Source: Marilutibacter spongiae (GTDB lineage: Bacteria > Pseudomonadota > Gammaproteobacteria > Xanthomonadales > Xanthomonadaceae). From it: a DNA stretch of 64,000 nt. Position numbers and translations under genes: made by a program. The notes under the pieces are model-generated. The model worked only from the letters and a program-made list of their open reading frames with translations. It had not been told where the DNA came from and searched no databases. Shown here piece by piece: positions 4,100-38,017 of this stretch (positions are counted from its first letter, which is position 1; every line of letters starts with the position of its first letter). The DNA lies in assembly GCF_014145325.1 (NCBI RefSeq), contig NZ_JACHTF010000002.1, positions 124,001 to 188,000 of the forward strand. Reading direction: 5' to 3'.

Positions 4100-4873
4100 T
4101 CAGCCGCCGATGAACTGCTCGGCGAGCATGCGCTCCTCGAGATTGTGCTCGGGGTCGAACAACAGGGTGACGGTGCGGTCGAGCGACTCGCGGATCGTCA
4201 CCTCGAGTACATCGCGGACTTCGTGCGAGTCCGCCGTGGCGCTGACAGGTCGCTTGTACGGGTCGAGGACGCGGAAACGCACCTCGGTGTCGGCCTTGAG
4301 CACGGCGCCGCGCCAACGGCGCGGCCGGAACGGGGCGATCGGCGTCAACGCGATGACCTTGCCGCCCAGGGGCAGGATGGGGCCATGCGCGGAGAAGTTG
4401 TACGCGGTGCTGCCGGCCGGGGTCGCGACCATGACGCCGTCGCTGATCAGCTCCTCCAGCCGCGTCTGGCCGTTGAGCTCGATGCCCAGGTGGGCCGCCT
4501 GGCGCGTCTGCCGCAGCAGCGACACCTCGTTGTAGGCCAGCGAACCGACCGTTGCCCCCGACTCGGTCGTGGCGACCATCTCCAGCGGACGCAGCACGGA
4601 CGGCTCGGCCGCATGCAGGCGGTCGACCAGGCCGTCGACGCGGTACTGGTTCATCATGAACCCCACCGAGCCGAGCTTCATGCCATAGACCGGCTTGCCG
4701 AGCGAGCCGAAGCGGTGGAGGGTCTGCAGCATGAAGCCGTCGCCGCCCAGCGCCACCAGCACGTCGGCCTCGCCCGGGTCGAGCTGGCCGTGGCGCGCGG
4801 TCAGCGCTTCCAGTGCCTCGAGGGCATCCTCGGCCGGACTGGCGAGGAAGGCGATGCGGGGCGAGTCGGTCAT
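4100..4873 (-). CDS. nadK: NAD kinase
   Basis: Phosphorylates NAD to NADP using ATP; cytoplasmic and normally essential. The 257-residue protein has the diagnostic GGDG at 43-46 inside '[18 protein letters not shown]', followed by '[17 protein letters not shown]' and the substrate-loop '[23 protein letters not shown]'. It is shorter than the ~292-residue Escherichia coli enzyme, and its GSVGFMMN segment looks like the alphaproteobacterial subtype rather than the enteric GxLGFLT form. GGAG lies 10 bp before the ATG (4873). It is downstream of gdhB on the same strand after a 115-bp gap. Confidence 0.93.
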
Positions 4874-4988
4874 GGTCGGCTCCTGGAGGGCGCCGCCAGC
4901 ATAACCCGAGCCCCGCCCCCGCCCGCGCGCGGCGGCGGACGGACAACGGTCCCGTCCGCCCGCGGCGACCCCGTGACCGCGGCGCCGG

Positions 4989-7900
4989 TCAGGCGCCGGA
5001 CCCCGCGACCTGGGCCAGGCGCCGCACGGCGACGGACACCGTCGGGTAGTCGATCGACTTCTGGTTCACCAGCTCCGTGAGCATGGCCTGGGTGAAACGC
5101 AGGGAGGCATCGTCGCGCTTGAGCCAGGCCTCGACCTTGTCGCGCGCCGGCTTCTTGCCGCCCGTCGACAGGATCTGCCCGACCAGGGCGCGCTGCTGGA
5201 TGCCCAGCTCGTCGCGCAGGGCGCCGCGGGCCAGGGCCTGCCAGCGACCGTCGACTTCCAGGGCGTCGATCTGCTCGTACAGCCAGGGCATGTGCAACGC
5301 CGCGCCGAGGCTGAAGTAGGCGCTCGCGACCTCGGCCGGCGGCATGCGCCGCGCGTGCGCGATCTCGACGATGTCGCAGGCGAACTCGAGCAGCGGCAGG
5401 GCCGCCAGCTGTTCGGCCAGCGCCGCCGGGAAGCCCTTGCGGCGCCATTCGGCCTGGCGCTGCTCGAAACCTTCGCGGCGCACCTCCGACATCGACTCCG
5501 GCAGCGCCTTGCGCACCGCCTCCAGGCCATCGCCGTAGCGGGCCATCGCCTCGGTGATCTCGGGAATGGCGCCCGGTCGCGACAGCAGCCAGCGCGACAT
5601 GCTGCGCATCAGGTGCCAGATCACCTGGAGGGCGTCGATCTGCACCGACTCGGCGACCTTGCCGTCGACCGCGTCGATCTGCGCCCACAGACCGCGTGCG
5701 TCGATCGCTTCGCGGGCGATGGTGTAGGCCTTGGCGACCTCGGCGGCACTGCGCCCGGTGTCCTCCTGCATGCGCAGGGTAAAGGTCGCGCCCATGCGGT
5801 TGACCATCGAGTTGGTGACCGCCGTGGCGATGATCTCGCGCTTCAGCCGGTGCTGCTGCATGCCCTTGGCGTACTTCTCCTGCAAGGGCTGCGGGAAGTA
5901 GCGCACCAGCTCCTTGGACAGGTACGGGTCCTCGGGGATGTCGGACTCCAGCAACTGCTGGTAGATCACCAGCTTGGCGTAGGACAGAAGCACCGAGAGC
6001 TCGGGGCGGGTGAGGCCCTGGCCGCGCGACTTGCGCTCGGAGATCTCCGCGTCGCTGGGCAGGTACTCGATCTGCCGGTCCAGCAGGCCCTGCGATTCCA
6101 GCGTGCGGATGAAGTGCTGCTTGGAACCCAGGCGCGGGACGCTCATCCGCTCCATCAGGCTGATGGCCTGGTTCTGGCGGTAGTTGTCCACCAGTACCAG
6201 CGCCTCGACCTCGTCGGTCATCGCCGCCAGCAGCTTGTTGCGCGCCGGCACGGTGAGCTTGCCGGCCTGGACCTGGCCGTTGAGCAGGATCTTGATGTTG
6301 ACCTCGTGGTCGGACGTGTCCACGCCGGCCGAATTGTCGATGAAGTCGGTGTTGAGCAGCACGCCGTGCAGGGCCGCCTCGATGCGCCCCAGCTGGGTCA
6401 GGCCCAGGTTGCCGCCCTCGCCCACCACCTTGCAGCGCAGTTCGCGGCCGTTGACCCGCAGCGCGTTGTTGGCACGGTCGCCGACGTCGGCATGGGTCTC
6501 GCTTGCGGCCTTGACGTAGGTGCCGATGCCGCCGTTCCACAGCAGGTCGACCGGCGCGCGCAGGATCGCGCTCATCAGCTCGTTGGGGCTCATCGCCTCG
6601 ACCGACTCGTCGATGCCCAGCGCTTGCCGGGCCTCGCGGGAGACGGCGATCGACTTGGCCGTGCGCGGGAAGACGCCACCGCCCTTGCTGATGAGCGACG
6701 CGTCGTAGTCCGCCCAGCTCGAGCGCGGCAGCTTGAACATCCGCTTGCGCTCCTTGAAGGTCGCCGCGGCGTCGGGGTTGGGGTCGATGAAGATGTGGCG
6801 GTGGTCGAACGCGGCGACGAGGCGGATGTGACGGCTCAGCAGCATGCCGTTGCCGAACACGTCGCCGGACATGTCACCGATGCCGACCGCGGTGAAGTCC
6901 TCCTTCTGGCTGTTGCGGCCCAGGGCGCGGAAGTGACGCTTGACCGACTCCCAGGCGCCCTTGGCGGTGATGCCCATGCCCTTGTGGTCGTAACCGACCG
7001 AGCCGCCGGAGGCGAAGGCATCGTCGAGCCAGTACCCATGCTCGCGGGCGATGCCGTTGGCGATGTCGGAGAAGGTCGCGGTGCCCTTGTCGGCCGCGAC
7101 CACCAGGTACGGGTCGTCCTGGTCGTGGCGGACCACGTCGACCGGCGGGACGACCTTGCCCTCGACCAGGTTGTCGGTAATGTCGAGCAGGCCGTTGATG
7201 AACATGCGGTAGCACGCCACGCCCTCGGCCCAGATCGCGTCGCGGTCGCCACCCTCGGGCGGGCGCTTGCTGATGAAGCCGCCCTTGGAGCCCACCGGGA
7301 CGATGACCGTGTTCTTCACCATCTGCGCCTTTACCAGGCCCAGTACCTCGGTGCGGAAGTCCTCGCGACGGTCGGACCAGCGCAGGCCGCCGCGCGCCAC
7401 CGGGCCGAAGCGCAGGTGGATGCCCTCCACGCGCGGTCCGCAGACGAAGATCTCGCGGTAGGGCCGCGGCTTGGGCAGGTCGGGAACCTCGGCCGAGTCG
7501 AACTTGTAGCTGACGTAGCCCTTCTCGGCGCCGCCGGCCCCGGTCTGGTAGTAGCTGGTGCGCAGGGTCGCGTCGATCACGCCCATGTAACTGCGCAGGA
7601 TGCGGTCTTCGTCGAGGCTGGAGACGCGGTCCAGCAGCGCGAGCAACGCCTTGCGGGTGGCCTCCACCTGGCGGTCGCGCTTGCCTTCGCGCGCCTCGAC
7701 CACCGGCGCGAGCGCGGCGATGGTCGACGCGTCGCCCTGGGCCAGGCCCTCGATCTGCGCCTTGAAGCGCGCCATGCCGGCCTTGATCTCGGCACGGCTC
7801 TCGTTGCCGGTGTTGGGGTCGAAGCGGGCCTCGAACAGTTCCACCATCAGGCGCGCGAGCAGCGGATAGCGGGCGAACGTCTGCTCGACGTAGGCCTGCG

Positions 7901-27169: not shown

Positions 27170-27736
27170 ATGGACGCATCCCGGGAAATCACCCGGCTCC
27201 TGCAACGCCATCACCAGGGCGATCGCGATGCCTTCGATCGCATGGTGCCGCTGGTCTACGAGCGCATGCGCGGCATCGCGCGCGGCCAGATCGCCCGGGC
27301 CGGCCGCCGGGGGGCGACCCTGGACACCACCGCGCTGGTGCAGGAGGCCTACCTGCAACTGGTCGAGGTCGACGGCGTCGACTGGCAGGACCGCGGCCAT
27401 TTCTTCGCCATCTGCGCGCGGGCGATGCGCCGCATCCTGGTCGACGACGCGCGCCGCCGCCACGCCGCCAAGCGCGGGGGCGACGCCGTGCCGGTGACGC
27501 TGGACGCCGAGGTACTGGCGGCCGAGAGCGCGTCGGACCAGGTGCTGGCGATCAACGACGCCCTCACCGGCCTGGAGGCCTTCAACGCGCGCCTGGCGCG
27601 GGTGGTGGAATGCCGCTACTTCGCCGGCATGACCGAAGAAGAGACCGCTCGGGCGCTGGATACGTCGCTGCGCACGGTCCAGCGCGACTGGATGCGTGCG
27701 CGGGCCTGGCTGCTCAAGGCCCTGGCCGAGGGGTGA
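27170..27736 (+). CDS. ECF-type sigma factor (Sig-70_X6 group)
   Basis: A 188-residue sigma factor of the group usually found next to a TPR Ser/Thr kinase. The sigma-2 region spans residues ~18-95 ('FDRMVPLVYERMRGIARGQIARAGRRGATLDTTALVQEAYLQL') with 'DARRRHAAKRGGD' after it. Sigma-4 is at ~130-185 ('ARVVECRYFAGMTEEETARALDTSLRTVQRDWMRARAWL'). The ATG at 27170 is chosen because GGGG lies 7 bp upstream; an ATG 6 bp earlier has no room for a ribosome site. There is no anti-sigma gene; the downstream kinase, 7 bp away, is the likely partner. Confidence 0.85.
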   Translation: MDASREITRLLQRHHQGDRDAFDRMVPLVYERMRGIARGQIARAGRRGATLDTTALVQEAYLQLVEVDGVDWQDRGHFFAICARAMRRILVDDARRRHAAKRGGDAVPVTLDAEVLAAESASDQVLAINDALTGLEAFNARLARVVECRYFAGMTEEETARALDTSLRTVQRDWMRARAWLLKALAEG

Positions 27737-27743
27737 CGGGCGC

Positions 27744-30545
<2,802 letters not shown>

Positions 30546-30569: not shown

Positions 30570-31211
30570 TCAGCGGGCTCGACGACAGTCGCCCTTGACG
30601 GTCACCCGGACGCGCCGGACGTTGTTGGCTTCGTTGGTCTCGGCCACGGTCGCGCCATCATCGACCGCGACGTACAGCAGGGTGGTGCCCGGCGCGAGCA
30701 GCAGGTGCCCGTCGGAGTTGACCATCGCGCCCGCCACCAGGCCGGTCACCGGATCGGTGGCCAGCACCGGCCCGGCGACGGCATCGCGATGGATCCGGTT
30801 GGTGAACGCCCCGGCACCGGCCGCGCCGTCGTTGCGGGCGGTGAACCTGTAGCGGAACACGCAGCGACCGCGCTTGAACTGCACCGCGTCGCTTGCCGGC
30901 ACGGTCGCGGCCGTGCCCCAGGGTATCGCGCTGTTGCCGAGCTGGAAGGCATCCACCAACAGCAGGTCGACCGCGCCCACCGGCGCGAACTGTGCCTGAC
31001 GGCCCTGGCCGGGCCCGCCCGGGTCGCCGTCCTGCTGTGGACCCGGCTTCGGCGCCGCGATCATGCCCTGCGCGGGCATCGCGTCCACCGGGTCGACGGT
31101 GGGCTCGCGGGTCTCGGGCGGGCGCTCCTGCGCCACCAGCGGGCCCGAGAGCACCAGCGCCAGCATGCCGGCGCGCGCCAGGCGCGTCGTGTTCGGGGTC
31201 GATCTGGACAT
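30570..31211 (-). CDS. Secreted protein with a CARDB-like domain
   Basis: A 213-residue exported protein. The ATG at 31211 is chosen for the strong GGAGAGGA before it; an in-frame ATG 24 bp upstream lacks one. A signal peptide (cleavage near VAQE, residue 28) leads to a Pro/Gly-rich linker with 'PKPGPQQDGDPGGPGQGRQAQ'. The C-terminal ~110 residues form a CARDB/Ig-like adhesion fold: 'FRYRFTARNDGAAGAGAF' and the typical ending 'LLYVAVDDGATVAETNEANNVRRVRV'. Two Cys (in GRCVF and GDCRR) could form a disulfide. It is convergent with the kinase gene and divergent from the M23 peptidase gene across 240 bp with no clear promoter. Ligand unknown. Confidence 0.68.
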   Translation of the reverse strand: MSRSTPNTTRLARAGMLALVLSGPLVAQERPPETREPTVDPVDAMPAQGMIAAPKPGPQQDGDPGGPGQGRQAQFAPVGAVDLLLVDAFQLGNSAIPWGTAATVPASDAVQFKRGRCVFRYRFTARNDGAAGAGAFTNRIHRDAVAGPVLATDPVTGLVAGAMVNSDGHLLLAPGTTLLYVAVDDGATVAETNEANNVRRVRVTVKGDCRRAR

Positions 31212-31451: not shown

Positions 31452-32867
31452 ATGCACCTTACCCCTTCCCGCCGCCCGGCCGCCGGCCTCTGCCTGGGCA
31501 CCTGCGCCCTGCTGCTGGCCGGCCAGGCCCTGGCCCTGGAGAAATCCAAGGGCGTCTACCGCATTCCCTACGCCGACGGCACCGATGTGCGCGTCTCCAA
31601 CGACCACCTCAAGCATTCGCCGCCGGGACGCATCGACATGGGCGGGCGCGGCGGCGGCACCTACCGGATCGTGGCCGCGGCCGATGGCATCGTGCGCCGC
31701 GTGGTCGATGGCTTCGACAAGCGCATCGACGACTGCGGCGACCTGGCCGCCAGCGAGAAGAAGAACAACTACGTCTGGATCGAGCACCCCAATGGCGAGT
31801 GGACCAAGTACACGCACATGGCGGAGGGCTCCTCGACCGGCAAGGCCGGGCTGAAGGTCGGCCAGTCGGTGAAGGCCGGGACCTACCTGGGCGACGAATC
31901 CGACGTCGGTTGCGCCAGCGGCGACCACCTGCACTTCGAGGTCGGCGTGCCCCGCGCGACCGACGGCATCACCACCGTCGGCGGCTTCCTGGCCGACAAC
32001 GCCGGCAGCAAGCGCAACCGCATCCCGCGCATCTGCGGGATCGATGGCGGCATCTTCGCCAGCGGCCAGTCCTACGAGGCGCGCAAGGTGCCCGGCGCCA
32101 TCCAGGCGGGGGCCAAGGAAGTCGCGCGTCATGGCGTGTCCGCGCGCGATTACCAGTGCCTGTTCGACCAGGCCGTCGCCTCGGGCTACGCACTGGACTG
32201 GATCGACGGCTTCGACGTCGGCGGGAAGGTCTACTACAACGCGGTGTTCCGGCCACGCAGCGGTGCGTGGAGCGCCTTCCATGGCCTGTCGGCCGCGCAG
32301 TACCAGCAGCGCTTCGACCAGTACACCGGCCAGGGCTACCGGCCGGTGCAGGTGGAGAGCTACGCGGGCAGTGGCGGCGTCCGTTACGCGGTGATCTTCC
32401 GCAAGCAGGGCGGCCCGGCCTACTCGGCCTACCACGGACTGGACGCGGCGACCCACCAGTCGCGGATGAACGCGCTGTCCCAGGCCGGTTACCGGCCGCG
32501 CAACGTCTCGGTGGTGTCGGCGGGCGGGCAGCGCCGCTACACCGCGCTCTACGAGAAGGCCGACATCGGCAGCTGGCAGGCCAAGTCGCAGCTGACGGCG
32601 AACCAGTACCAGCAGGCCTTCGAGGCCAACGCGGGCGCGGGTCGCCAGCTCGTCTACCTCAATGCCTACGTCCACGCCGGGCAGGCGCATTTCTCCGCGA
32701 TCTGGAGCTCGAAGGCGACCGGTCCGTACAAGGCGCGCCACGGCCTGGACAGCGGCCAGTACCAGAGCGAGTGGCAGGCCACGACGCAGGCCGGCTACGC
32801 CACCCGCGACGTCACCGGCTACGCGAGCGGCAACCGCGCCCGCTACGCCGCGATATGGCGCAAGTAG
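31452..32867 (+). CDS. M23-family metallopeptidase with five C-terminal tandem repeats
   Basis: A 471-residue secreted zinc endopeptidase. Signal peptide 1-29 (cleavage near ALALE). The catalytic domain spans ~30-185: zinc ligands H55 and D62 ('HSPPGRIDMGG') and H161 in HLH, with H122 ('YTHMAEGS') and H159 as catalytic histidines. The six residues between H55 and D62 exceed the HxxxD of LytM/lysostaphin and suit the wider-spaced relatives (LasA/beta-lytic). M23 enzymes cut peptidoglycan cross-links, often glycine bridges. Residues ~216-471 are five ~50-residue repeats shared with the serine hydrolase two genes downstream. It is first of three co-directional genes. Confidence 0.88.
   Translation: MHLTPSRRPAAGLCLGTCALLLAGQALALEKSKGVYRIPYADGTDVRVSNDHLKHSPPGRIDMGGRGGGTYRIVAAADGIVRRVVDGFDKRIDDCGDLAASEKKNNYVWIEHPNGEWTKYTHMAEGSSTGKAGLKVGQSVKAGTYLGDESDVGCASGDHLHFEVGVPRATDGITTVGGFLADNAGSKRNRIPRICGIDGGIFASGQSYEARKVPGAIQAGAKEVARHGVSARDYQCLFDQAVASGYALDWIDGFDVGGKVYYNAVFRPRSGAWSAFHGLSAAQYQQRFDQYTGQGYRPVQVESYAGSGGVRYAVIFRKQGGPAYSAYHGLDAATHQSRMNALSQAGYRPRNVSVVSAGGQRRYTALYEKADIGSWQAKSQLTANQYQQAFEANAGAGRQLVYLNAYVHAGQAHFSAIWSSKATGPYKARHGLDSGQYQSEWQATTQAGYATRDVTGYASGNRARYAAIWRK
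32097..32864 (+). repeat. Five protein-level tandem repeats in the M23 peptidase
   Basis: Five consecutive ~50-residue units, each following the pattern [A/S]xHGL-x3-QYQ-x-F-x5-GY-x3-V-x-Y-x2-G-x2-RYxAIW-x-K. Unit 1 begins at 'AIQAGAKEVARHG' and is the most divergent; unit 5 begins 'PYKARHGLDSGQYQ' and ends the protein. The units match those of the serine hydrolase at 33.5-34.3 kb and the bacterial tandem repeat described in polyglycine hydrolases (PF17660, from memory). Confidence 0.8.
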
Positions 32868-32928
32868 CGCCATGCCCGCCCGGGCCGCGGCACGACGCCG
32901 CGTCCCGGGCCCACCGGAGGACCCCACC

Positions 32929-33378
32929 ATGACCACCCCGTCCATCCCCATCGACCCCGCGACATCGCACCGCCGTCCCTTCGGAAGCCTCTTCGCGGCC
33001 CTCGCCGTCGTGGCGCTGCTTGCCGCGCAACCGGCCGCCTTCCAGGCCTCGGCGCAGACCCGCGCATCGCTGCCGCGCCAGGCCCTCGCCCTGCCCTCCG
33101 ACAGTAAGGGCGCGACCTGCACCAGCACCGACGGCAAGGCCACCTGCTCGTGCAGCGCGCCGGGGGGCAAGTGCCAGGCCAAGGCCACCAGTTGTTCGTG
33201 CTACGGCGTCCCCCCGCCGCCGGCGCAACCGGCCGGGCAGCGGGGCCCCGGCGGACTATCGGCGACGGGGGCGGCGCTGAAGGCGACCTGCACGTCCGGC
33301 AACGGCCTGAAGGTCTGTGCCTGCGGCGACAAGGGCTGCAATGCCGCCGAAGTCAGCTGCGGCTGCCTCGACCACTGA
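32929..33378 (+). CDS. Secreted 12-cysteine protein
   Basis: A 149-residue protein with no family I can name. The signal sequence is long, with hydrophobic 20-34 ('SLFAALAVVALLAAQPAA') and likely cleavage near ASAQT at 43. The mature part has two six-cysteine modules, C64-C91 and C121-C146, with spacing C-x8-C-x-C-x(6 or 4)-C-x6-C-x-C, joined by a Pro/Gly-rich linker. This is a clear internal duplication and suggests a small disulfide-rich fold. GGAGGA lies 8 bp before the ATG. It sits 61 bp after the M23 gene and 28 bp before the serine hydrolase gene, so it is probably co-secreted, as an inhibitor, chaperone-like partner or effector (inference). Confidence 0.7.
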   Translation: MTTPSIPIDPATSHRRPFGSLFAALAVVALLAAQPAAFQASAQTRASLPRQALALPSDSKGATCTSTDGKATCSCSAPGGKCQAKATSCSCYGVPPPPAQPAGQRGPGGLSATGAALKATCTSGNGLKVCACGDKGCNAAEVSCGCLDH

Positions 33379-33406
33379 TCCATCCCCATCAAGCAAGGAG
33401 AGAACG

Positions 33407-35242
33407 ATGAAACCCAGTGTCATCACCCCCGCCATCCAGCGCCGCCGCCTGCGCGGCCTGGCGCGATCGATCGCAGTCGCCGGGCTGTTCGTGCTCGGCC
33501 TCCACGCCGCCGTCGCCGCGCCCTGGGCCGCGCGCCACGGCCTGACCGGCGCCCAGTACCAGCAGGCCTTCCAGACCTACAGTGGACAGGGCTACCGGCT
33601 GGTATCGGTCGCCGGCTACGAACAGGGCGGCGGCGCCCGCTACGCCGGGCTCTGGAAAAAGCAGTCCGGGCCGGCCTGGGCCGCGCGCCATGGTCTCGAC
33701 CCGCAGCAGTACCAGGCCGCCTTCAACGACTTCAGCGGCAAGGGCTATCGCCTGACCTACGTCAATGGCTACGCGGTCGGCGGCAAGCCCCATTACGCGG
33801 CCATCTGGGAGAAGCGCGGTGGCCCGGCGTGGAAAGCACGCCACGGGCTGACCGCCGAGCAGTACCAGGCGGCCGTGACCGACATGGCCCGGCAGGGCTA
33901 CGCGCCCACCCACCTGAGTGCGTTCAGCCTGGGCGGCTCGCCGCGCTTCGCGGCGATCTTCGAGAAGGACAGCCCGCCCTGGGTCGCCCGCCACGGCCTG
34001 ACCGGCAGCGCCTACCAGCAGGCCTTCGACGAGTTCACCGGCAAGGGCTACCGCCTGAAGGTCGTCAGCGGCTACCGCCAGGGCAACGGCGACCGCTACG
34101 CCGCGATCTGGGTCAAGACCGGGGGACCGCTCGCCGCCGCGCGCCACGGCATCCCGGCGGCGCACTACCAGCACGTCTTCGACAACCATCGCTACCAGAG
34201 CTGGGAACCGCGGTACATCGAGGCCTTCAACGGCGGCAGCGGGGTGCGCTTCAACGGGCTGTGGGAGAACACGGCCTTCAAGGCGCAGGACCTGAAGCTG
34301 ATCGACGACAAGGTACGCGCCTACATGCAGGCCAACGGCATCCCGGGCATGTCGATCGCGATCAGCAAGGACAAGCGCCTGGTCTACGCGGCCGGCTTCG
34401 GCAAGGCCGACGACAGCACGCCCGTCGGGCCCGCCCACCGCTTCCGCATCGCCAGCGTGTCCAAGCCGATCACCGTGGTCGCGGTCACGCGCCTGGCCAA
34501 CGACACCTCGCTGGACATGGGCTCGCGCGTGTTCGGACCGCGCAGCGTGCTCGGCGGCCAGTTCGCCACGCCGTCCAACAACCCCGACATCGAGGACATC
34601 ACCGTGGACCACCTGGTCCGCCATCGCGCCGGTTTCCGGCGCATCGACAAGGACGGCAACGCCAGCGACCCCATGTTCGCCTACACCGGCACCACCCATG
34701 CGGGCCTGGTCAACTGGGCACTGGCGAACTACCCCCTGGGCTACGCCCCGGGCACCAACCCCGGGCTGCCGAGCGACCAGACGTATTCCAACTTCGGCTA
34801 CTGCCTGCTCGGCCGCGTGATCGAGGCGCGCAGCGGCAAGTCCTACGAGGCCTACGTGCGCGACACGATCCTCAAGCCCGCCGGCGCGTCGGGCATGGTC
34901 ATCGGCGGCGACAAGGAAGCCGACCGCAAGACCAACGAGGTGAAGTACTACGGCAGCGGCGCCTACTCGAGCGTCAAGCCCCGGCGCTTCGATTCGCATG
35001 GCGGCTGGATCGCCACCCCCGCCGACCTGCTGCGCTTCATGCGCCACGAAACCGTGCTCAGCACGTCGTACGCGCACTACGGTTCGATGAGCGGCACCAA
35101 CGCGGTCTACCGTCGCCGCAGCGATGGTTTCGGCTACGCGGCGACCGCCAATTCAAGCGCCGGCGACGTGGCGGACATCGACGCGATGCTCAAGGAGATC
35201 GTCGAGGGGGTATCGGCCTGGCCGGCCGGCGACCTGTTCTGA
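33407..35242 (+). CDS. Serine beta-lactamase-fold hydrolase with five tandem repeats (polyglycine-hydrolase-like)
   Basis: A 611-residue exported protein. AAGGAG lies 7 bp before the ATG at 33407; the signal is at ~20-37 (cleavage near AVAAP). Residues ~39-291 are five ~50-residue repeats of the same type as in the M23 protein. The catalytic domain (~292-605) is class C beta-lactamase-like: nucleophile S350 with K353 in SVSK, Y460-S-N462 as the Yx N motif, and H531-G-G533 for the third box. Repeats joined to this domain define polyglycine hydrolases, proteases that cut Gly-Gly bonds in plant chitinase linkers; beta-lactamase or esterase activity is the alternative. Substrate specificity here is inferred from architecture, not proven. 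Confidence 0.85.
   Translation: MKPSVITPAIQRRRLRGLARSIAVAGLFVLGLHAAVAAPWAARHGLTGAQYQQAFQTYSGQGYRLVSVAGYEQGGGARYAGLWKKQSGPAWAARHGLDPQQYQAAFNDFSGKGYRLTYVNGYAVGGKPHYAAIWEKRGGPAWKARHGLTAEQYQAAVTDMARQGYAPTHLSAFSLGGSPRFAAIFEKDSPPWVARHGLTGSAYQQAFDEFTGKGYRLKVVSGYRQGNGDRYAAIWVKTGGPLAAARHGIPAAHYQHVFDNHRYQSWEPRYIEAFNGGSGVRFNGLWENTAFKAQDLKLIDDKVRAYMQANGIPGMSIAISKDKRLVYAAGFGKADDSTPVGPAHRFRIASVSKPITVVAVTRLANDTSLDMGSRVFGPRSVLGGQFATPSNNPDIEDITVDHLVRHRAGFRRIDKDGNASDPMFAYTGTTHAGLVNWALANYPLGYAPGTNPGLPSDQTYSNFGYCLLGRVIEARSGKSYEAYVRDTILKPAGASGMVIGGDKEADRKTNEVKYYGSGAYSSVKPRRFDSHGGWIATPADLLRFMRHETVLSTSYAHYGSMSGTNAVYRRRSDGFGYAATANSSAGDVADIDAMLKEIVEGVSAWPAGDLF
33521..34279 (+). repeat. Five protein-level tandem repeats in the serine hydrolase
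   Basis: The units start at 'PWAARHGLTGAQYQQAFQTY', 'PAWAARHGLDPQQYQAAF', 'PAWKARHGLTAEQYQAAV', 'PPWVARHGLTGSAYQQAF' and 'PLAAARHGIPAAHYQHVF'. Each ends with [R/H]Y-A-x-[I/L]-W-x-K. Identity between units is far higher than for a random beta fold, and they share the consensus seen at 32.1-32.9 kb. They probably form a propeller-like or extended structural domain used for binding. Confidence 0.85.
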
Positions 35243-35312: not shown

Positions 35313-37430
<2,118 letters not shown>

Positions 37431-37531
37431 CCGCGCATGGCGCGGTCGTCGATGCAGGTCCGGCTCGCGACCGGGGCGATGATCCTGCGCTAGGATCGCA
37501 GGCATTCCCTCGACCGGACACGATCGCCCGC

Positions 37532-38017
37532 ATGAACGCCCAATCCCGCTCGTCCCGCAGCCTGCTGACAGGCCTCGCCCTCGCTTCGCTCGTGATGGTG
37601 GTGGCGCTGGTCTGGATTTCACGCAGCGGCGGCGCGGGCGCCGATGGTACCGATACCGCCGATGGCGGCGAGACGGCATCGCCTCAGGCGCTGCAGGCCG
37701 GGGACGCCGGCCCGGAGACGCACGAGGCCGTCGCGGGCGACCGGCGCGCCCGCCCCGTCGTGGGCACGGCCACCCCGCCCGCGTTTCCGATCGAAGCGGT
37801 CAAGCGTGGCGAAAGCGGTCGCGTCGTCCTGGCGGTCGTCGTCGATCCGCGCGGCCAGGCCACGGCGGTCAGCATCGCGGAATCGAGCACCTCGACCCTG
37901 CTGGACGAGGCGGCCCGGGAAGCGGTCCAGCGCTGGCAGTTCGAGCCCGCCCTGGAAGGCGGCAAGCCGGTCGCCGACACCATCGAGATCCCGGTGGAGT
38001 TCGAACCGGCCGGCTGA
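37532..38017 (+). CDS. Short TonB-domain protein
   Basis: A 161-residue protein with a membrane anchor at ~12-30 ('LTGLALASLVMVVALVWIS'), a short Gly/Ala/Asp-rich linker rather than a Pro-rich spacer, and a C-terminal TonB domain at ~80-158 ('PPAFPIEAVKRGESGRVVLAVVVDPRGQATAVSIAESSTSTLLDEAAREAVQRWQFEPALEGGKPV'). The short spacer would not span the periplasm like a classic TonB, so it may act at the inner membrane or on another partner. A CCTGCG/CGCAGG hairpin (37484-37502) lies in the 101-bp gap from the first TonB gene. It is convergent with aroA. Confidence 0.8.
   Translation: MNAQSRSSRSLLTGLALASLVMVVALVWISRSGGAGADGTDTADGGETASPQALQAGDAGPETHEAVAGDRRARPVVGTATPPAFPIEAVKRGESGRVVLAVVVDPRGQATAVSIAESSTSTLLDEAAREAVQRWQFEPALEGGKPVADTIEIPVEFEPAG

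Follow-up and report, generated by a model that had tools for sequence, protein, structure and literature searches.

Here we describe a gene cluster of Marilutibacter spongiae, located in a stretch of 64,000 nucleotides (the window), in which two unrelated adjacent hydrolases each carry a five-repeat barrel of the Pfam family PF17660 (BTRD1, 'Polyglycine hydrolase-like, structural repeat'). The first gene (31452..32867, plus strand, 471 amino acids) encodes an M23 metallopeptidase followed by the barrel at its C-terminus, while the last gene (33407..35242, plus strand, 611 amino acids) encodes the barrel first and then a C-terminal beta-lactamase-like serine hydrolase. Both genes, and the five copies of one repeat family in each, were found where a preliminary description of this DNA had placed them. 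Between them lies a gene (32929..33378, plus strand, 149 amino acids) for a protein with two six-cysteine units and a signal-peptide-like N-terminus, whose cysteines are at residues 64-146. The three genes are separated by gaps of 61 and 28 bases, and AAGGAG stands ahead of the start of the serine-enzyme gene, so their co-transcription is likely. The N-termini of the M23 enzyme (about residues 1-29) and of the serine enzyme (about residues 1-38) are signal-peptide-like as judged by reading the sequence, which points to secretion of both.

The PF17660 model matched five stretches in each protein, scoring 230.1 bits in the M23 enzyme (E 1.6e-69) and 314.6 bits in the serine enzyme (E 6.4e-96) against a curated cut-off of 23. 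In the M23 enzyme the repeats occupy 32112..32864 (plus strand; residues 221-268, 271-319, 322-369, 373-420, and 424-471) and form one barrel, and in the serine enzyme they occupy 33518..34270 (plus strand; residues 38-86, 89-136, 140-187, 190-238, and 241-288). All ten BTRD1 matches of the source genome at E <= 0.001 fall inside these two genes, and at the same threshold none was found in 14 control genomes. The family also appears as a table row in the accessible part of PMC8078820. Exactly five matches per protein were obtained at E <= 1e-5 in 21 of the 22 genomes of the same bacterial family that have M23-type and/or serine-type proteins, the exception being G1208 with eight matches over two proteins; therefore, the five copies form a single domain. 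Structures were predicted for the full-length proteins from alignments of nine M23-type and six serine-type sequences. Both predicted barrels align with 7tpu, the structure of the fungal polyglycine hydrolase Fvan-cmp, in the same register, and the repeat folds are thus comparable, as had been anticipated; each barrel was aligned with 7tpu separately, and the likeness of the M23 and serine barrels to each other rests on this common alignment. No match to either catalytic domain appears in the VIA-align lists, an absence that is uninformative given the low confidence of those modelled parts.

The beta-lactamase-like domain of the serine enzyme (34301..35239, plus strand) was recognized by PF00144 at residues 299-549 with 142.1 bits against a Pfam cut-off of 27. 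It has the SxxK and YxN motifs of S12/PF00144 enzymes, with S350, K353, Y460, and N462 all present (S350xxK353 from 34454, Y460xN462 from 34784), and its S350-V-S-K353 and Y460-S-N462 are letter-identical to S343-V-S-K346 and Y447-S-N449 of Fvan-cmp. These two motifs stand as first described; the third, originally assigned to H531GG, is probably not located there. H531GG aligns with the glycine-rich stretch ahead of 'ST..D..RF' in the carboxylesterase 4ivi (segment 'G(G)..ST..D..RF'), and therefore H557-Y-G559 (from 35075), where H557 and G559 are invariant in six of six aligned proteins, is the more likely candidate for the third motif, which takes the form KTG or HxG. For Fvan-cmp, no third motif is listed in PMC9912923.

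The combination of a five-repeat N-terminal domain with a beta-lactamase-like C-terminal domain confirms the polyglycine-hydrolase architecture that had been proposed for the serine enzyme. In the profile search against solved chains, its catalytic stretch matched 2qmi with 64.4 bits, 4ivi with 51.3 bits (third), Flp with 49.0 bits, and 7tpu with 34.9 bits, and in the single-sequence search 2qmi scored 54.9 bits versus 23.7 bits for 7tpu; 7tpu is not the closest of the solved S12-like chains to the catalytic domain. With the barrel and catalytic parts summed, 7tpu ranked first both times, at 72.4 and 57.3 bits respectively. The solved relatives of the catalytic domain include, besides 2qmi, the alkaline D-peptidase 4y7p and the D-Ala-D-Ala carboxypeptidase 9s7k, and the best NCBIfam match was the D-Ala-D-Ala carboxypeptidase/endopeptidase AmpH with 55.7 bits, far under its cut-off. 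As judged from these sequence comparisons, the serine enzyme is a polyglycine hydrolase by architecture, not by kinship of its catalytic domain.

In the M23 enzyme, the catalytic domain (31551..32036, plus strand, about residues 34-195) includes a PF01551 match at residues 72-164 with 43.4 bits against a Pfam cut-off of 28.7. Residues H55, D62, H122, H159, and H161 are invariant in nine of nine aligned proteins. By analogy with other M23 enzymes, we propose H55, D62, and H161 as zinc ligands and H122 and H159 as catalytic residues. H55 and D62 fall outside the PF01551 match, the spacing of the proposed first zinc motif, H-x6-D, is unusual, and the model of the zinc site is of low confidence. 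Searched against solved chains, the M23 profile gave weak matches to assorted M23 chains, among which lysostaphin (E 0.009) ranked behind ShyA and zoocin A. The best NCBIfam families were peptidoglycan endopeptidases, namely ShyC (28 bits) and MepM (19.4 bits), both far under their cut-offs. A relative of this domain (47-48%) was also observed near the C-terminus of two Kribbella open frames (L064:4273-6501 and L065:4387-6501, both plus strand), which keep all five residues, without H52; no BTRD1 match was found in the Kribbella genomes bearing them.

Repeat by repeat, the M23 and serine arrays are 21-49% identical with no consistent pairing. When M23-type arrays were compared with three remote M23-type arrays, identity was 0.34-0.51 on the diagonal and 0.19-0.33 off it, the second repeat being barely above the off-diagonal rest; given this position-wise identity, the fusion of the M23 domain with the barrel looks old. 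Repeats R1-R4 of the serine enzyme are 44-61% identical among themselves, while R5, which lies beside the catalytic domain, stands apart (0.27-0.32). The two arrays belong to one module family and are not a recently shared copy. Recent copying of an array between the genes was rejected on the lack of consistent pairing and on the positions that the M23 arrays keep with the three remote ones. Circular permutation was also considered, a shift by one repeat giving the best cyclic register for 79 of the 99 M23 x serine pairs, and was rejected because the best free pairing is non-cyclic and the alignments of the two barrels with 7tpu share one register.

The distribution of BTRD1 was surveyed in 395 genomes of the bacterial family at E <= 1e-5, and the proteins were classed by comparison with both window proteins. 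Among the matches listed, BTRD1 occurs in at least 33 of these genomes. Both enzymes are encoded in 12 genomes, as neighbors within about 1.5 kb in ten (six genomes out of the seven in the window's genus, three in a second genus, and Pseudoxanthomonas wuyuanensis) and unlinked in two; the paired arrangement expected in related genomes is thus present. Five genomes have the serine enzyme only and five the M23 enzyme only, and the co-occurrence is far above chance (Fisher p 1.4e-15, uncorrected for relatedness, with seven of the 33 genomes, G1140, G1193, G1224, G1236, G1271, G1328, and G1276, unclassified and counted as having neither enzyme). The first six of these seven belong to one genus and have one or two weak BTRD1 matches each. 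A second M23 type with BTRD1 was found in two family genomes, and two genomes of one genus carry a shorter BTRD1 protein, which is of the C70 type by Pfam in G016 and was classed by comparison with the window proteins only, outside the Pfam scan, in G1270. In the phylum samples, BTRD1 was detected at E <= 1e-6 in 5 of 398 genomes (the window's genome and G016 included), 3 of 396, and 2 of 188, the latter two samples representing what we presume to be the phyla of Kribbella and Sandaracinus.

The gene between the enzymes has a narrower distribution. The 12-cysteine protein gave no match in Pfam and NCBIfam up to E 1 and was found in three of the ten neighboring pairs searched (the window, L. 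aestuarii, and the metagenome-assembled genome Co_bin.314), with none found in the other seven. A search of 149 family genomes gave strong matches in the window's genome and its congener G003 and weak ones in two others (E 6e-4 and 8e-4); G006 holds the protein yet is absent from these four matches. The protein is confined to the closest relatives. The gap of L. chinensis and that of L. maris contain another open reading frame, about 280-310 residues long and with a signal-peptide-like start (L060:7697-8626, plus strand; L059 within 4305-5296, plus strand), and in G005 and P. wuyuanensis the gap is at most about 0.3 kb. The 12-cysteine protein was therefore rejected as a fixed third component, contrary to its earlier inclusion in the system.

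BTRD1 was also found joined to a C70 papain-like peptidase (L050:4440-5744, minus strand; PF12385, 37.4 bits), to class-A-like Beta-lactamase2 domains (L165:2936-5260 and L166:3035-5362, both minus strand, and L054), to a second M23 type (L161 and L163 above cut-off, L052 and L053 slightly below), and to a protein with an HExxH motif (L164:3445-5583, minus strand; Reprolysin_5, 16.6 bits versus 27). Since PF00144 and PF13354 presumably have a common fold, BTRD1 occurs on three supported folds and a tentative fourth. The barrel is C-terminal to M23 domains and N-terminal to the serine, class-A-like, and C70 domains, and it looks like a hydrolase-associated module; its presence on many different enzymes makes it poor evidence for any one substrate. 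A five-repeat barrel of solved structure on two unrelated hydrolases encoded side by side, and on at least one further fold elsewhere, makes its role directly testable. Two short open frames (L159:4126-4551, minus strand; L160:3900-4154, plus strand) have two recognizable BTRD1 repeats each and no other domain seen.

Our preferred interpretation, which we regard as evenly poised, is that the secreted M23 and S12-like hydrolases act on cell-wall peptides of other bacteria and that the barrel is a docking domain. Both hydrolases, the M23 zinc endopeptidase and the serine enzyme of S12/class-C-like type, would be exported, each with one BTRD1 barrel as the accessory domain that would dock it onto a macromolecular substrate. 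Cell-wall cross-links would be cut by the M23 enzyme, an endopeptidase, and stem peptides by the serine enzyme, working as D-peptidase, endopeptidase, or amidase, so that other bacteria would be lysed or nutrients released from them. Because the barrel is C-terminal in one enzyme and N-terminal in the other, docking suits it better than a propeptide role. The interpretation draws further on the domains and motifs, on the peptidoglycan- and D-peptide-acting relatives among the NCBIfam families (all far under cut-off) and the solved chains, on the barrel fold, on the adjacency of the genes in ten of the 12 genomes with both, and on the basic charge of the window arrays. The domains, catalytic motifs, predicted and aligned barrel fold, synteny, and co-occurrence are shown here, and secretion, catalysis, docking, the cell-wall substrate, and joint action are inferred. 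Several observations weigh against this interpretation. Text searches of the literature turned up neither activity nor binding data for any bacterial BTRD1 protein, the catalytic domains are of low confidence in both predicted models, and PF00144 includes esterases, with 4ivi third in the profile search. Among the seven genomes in the window's genus, G001 has neither enzyme, and ten family genomes, as given above, keep one enzyme alone. The differing arrays weaken the case for one common binding surface, which does not bear out the earlier suggestion that a shared module directs both enzymes to the same target. The window arrays are basic (isoelectric points 9.7 and 9.8), and net charge is positive (+3 to +16) in all 20 arrays of the M23 and serine types that were examined; as G909, G952, and G020 have acidic arrays (net -10, -11, and -5), no single charged ligand fits all, and array charge was dropped as evidence for one ligand. 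A wider proposal strikes us as doubtful, namely that BTRD1 is a general peptidase-docking barrel of several unrelated folds, that the two enzymes of the locus form a conserved bacteriolytic cassette, their barrels recognizing the same surface polymer of other bacteria, and that the fungal polyglycine hydrolases are redirected relatives of bacterial wall-acting enzymes.

A real though lesser possibility is that the genes are adjacent by shared ancestry of the locus only, with different substrates for the two enzymes and a generic stability or protein-interaction role for the barrel. The retention of each enzyme alone in several genomes agrees with this, as do arrays that look independently differentiated; PMC9912923, which calls the function of the barrel unknown, offers interaction, chaperone, or anchoring roles. 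Adjacency in three genera and the excess of genomes with both enzymes, with its stated limit on relatedness, argue against it. That the serine enzyme is instead an esterase or a beta-lactamase-type detoxifying enzyme, with no peptidase activity, seems unlikely: PF00144 is functionally mixed and the 4ivi carboxylesterase ranks high, but the NCBIfam beta-lactamase families scored far under cut-off, and polyglycine hydrolases, which share this architecture, are proteases that show no activity on nitrocefin (PMC9912923). The preliminary description had interpreted the locus as a co-secreted system against glycine-rich peptides, whether in pentaglycine bridges or in polyglycine linkers, the common repeat bringing both enzymes to one target. 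Its observations are confirmed and its interpretation is partly supported; the glycine-rich target itself we now find quite unlikely. The architecture, the identical SVSK and YSN motifs, the alignment of both barrels with 7tpu, and the top rank of this chain over the whole serine protein speak for such a target, as does the cleavage of pentaglycine bridges by some M23 enzymes (accessible part of PMC9662197). However, the serine catalytic stretch is closer to 2qmi than to 7tpu and keeps an HxG candidate of a kind not listed for Fvan-cmp, the M23 matches are weak and assorted with lysostaphin behind ShyA and zoocin A, the barrel is carried by C70, class-A-like, and other M23 enzymes as well, and repeats do not pair consistently between the arrays.

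The fungal polyglycine hydrolases Fvan-cmp, Bz-cmp, and Es-cmp have five N-terminal EHEE repeats in a barrel followed by a beta-lactamase-like domain, as in the serine enzyme, whose barrel aligned with that of Fvan-cmp over 245 residues. Unlike them, the serine enzyme is bacterial, adjoins an M23 enzyme bearing the same barrel, and scores higher against penicillin-binding-protein- and D-peptidase-like chains over its catalytic stretch. With S12, AmpH, and 2qmi-type hydrolases it has PF00144, SxxK, and YxN in common, and it differs from them by the N-terminal barrel. The Lysobacter beta-lytic protease Blp (M23A), which we take to be from the same bacterial family, is also an M23 enzyme; the window enzyme has in addition a separate barrel, about 250 residues long. 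Lysostaphin and zoocin A resemble the window M23 enzyme in having a C-terminal accessory domain behind the M23 domain, according to the accessible part of PMC9662197, but their accessory domain is SH3b or TRD, the similarity is weak, and the H-x6-D spacing is a difference. In the accessible part of PMC13300490, known secreted Gram-negative M23 enzymes are described as lacking a separate accessory domain, which the enzyme reported here would possess. Text searches, mostly outside subscription papers and without the supplementary list of the structure paper, found none of the barrel-peptidase combinations described here in print.

The surroundings of the cluster are also recurrent. Upstream lie a protein kinase with a repeat-rich C-terminus (27696..30545, plus strand; named from sequence) and a divergent CARDB-domain protein (30570..31211, minus strand; PF07705, 31.1 bits), and downstream a convergent seryl-tRNA synthetase gene, serS (35313..36593, minus strand; also named from sequence). 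The order kinase, CARDB protein, M23 enzyme, serine enzyme, serS recurs wholly or partially; L. chinensis and G005 gave no CARDB match, and some contigs stop within the block. Where the two enzymes are unlinked, in Luteimonas saliphila and G1146, the M23 gene has the kinase and CARDB genes as neighbors and the serine-enzyme gene has serS, an arrangement that looks like a split of one ancestral cluster. For the congener that lacks the pair, only serS among the seven queries was found in the 17 kb around serS. The kinase and the divergent CARDB protein adjoin the M23 gene repeatedly in several genera, and a regulatory or adhesion tie is possible. Beyond serS, the window encodes two adjacent short TonB-C-like proteins, named from sequence, at 36700-38017.

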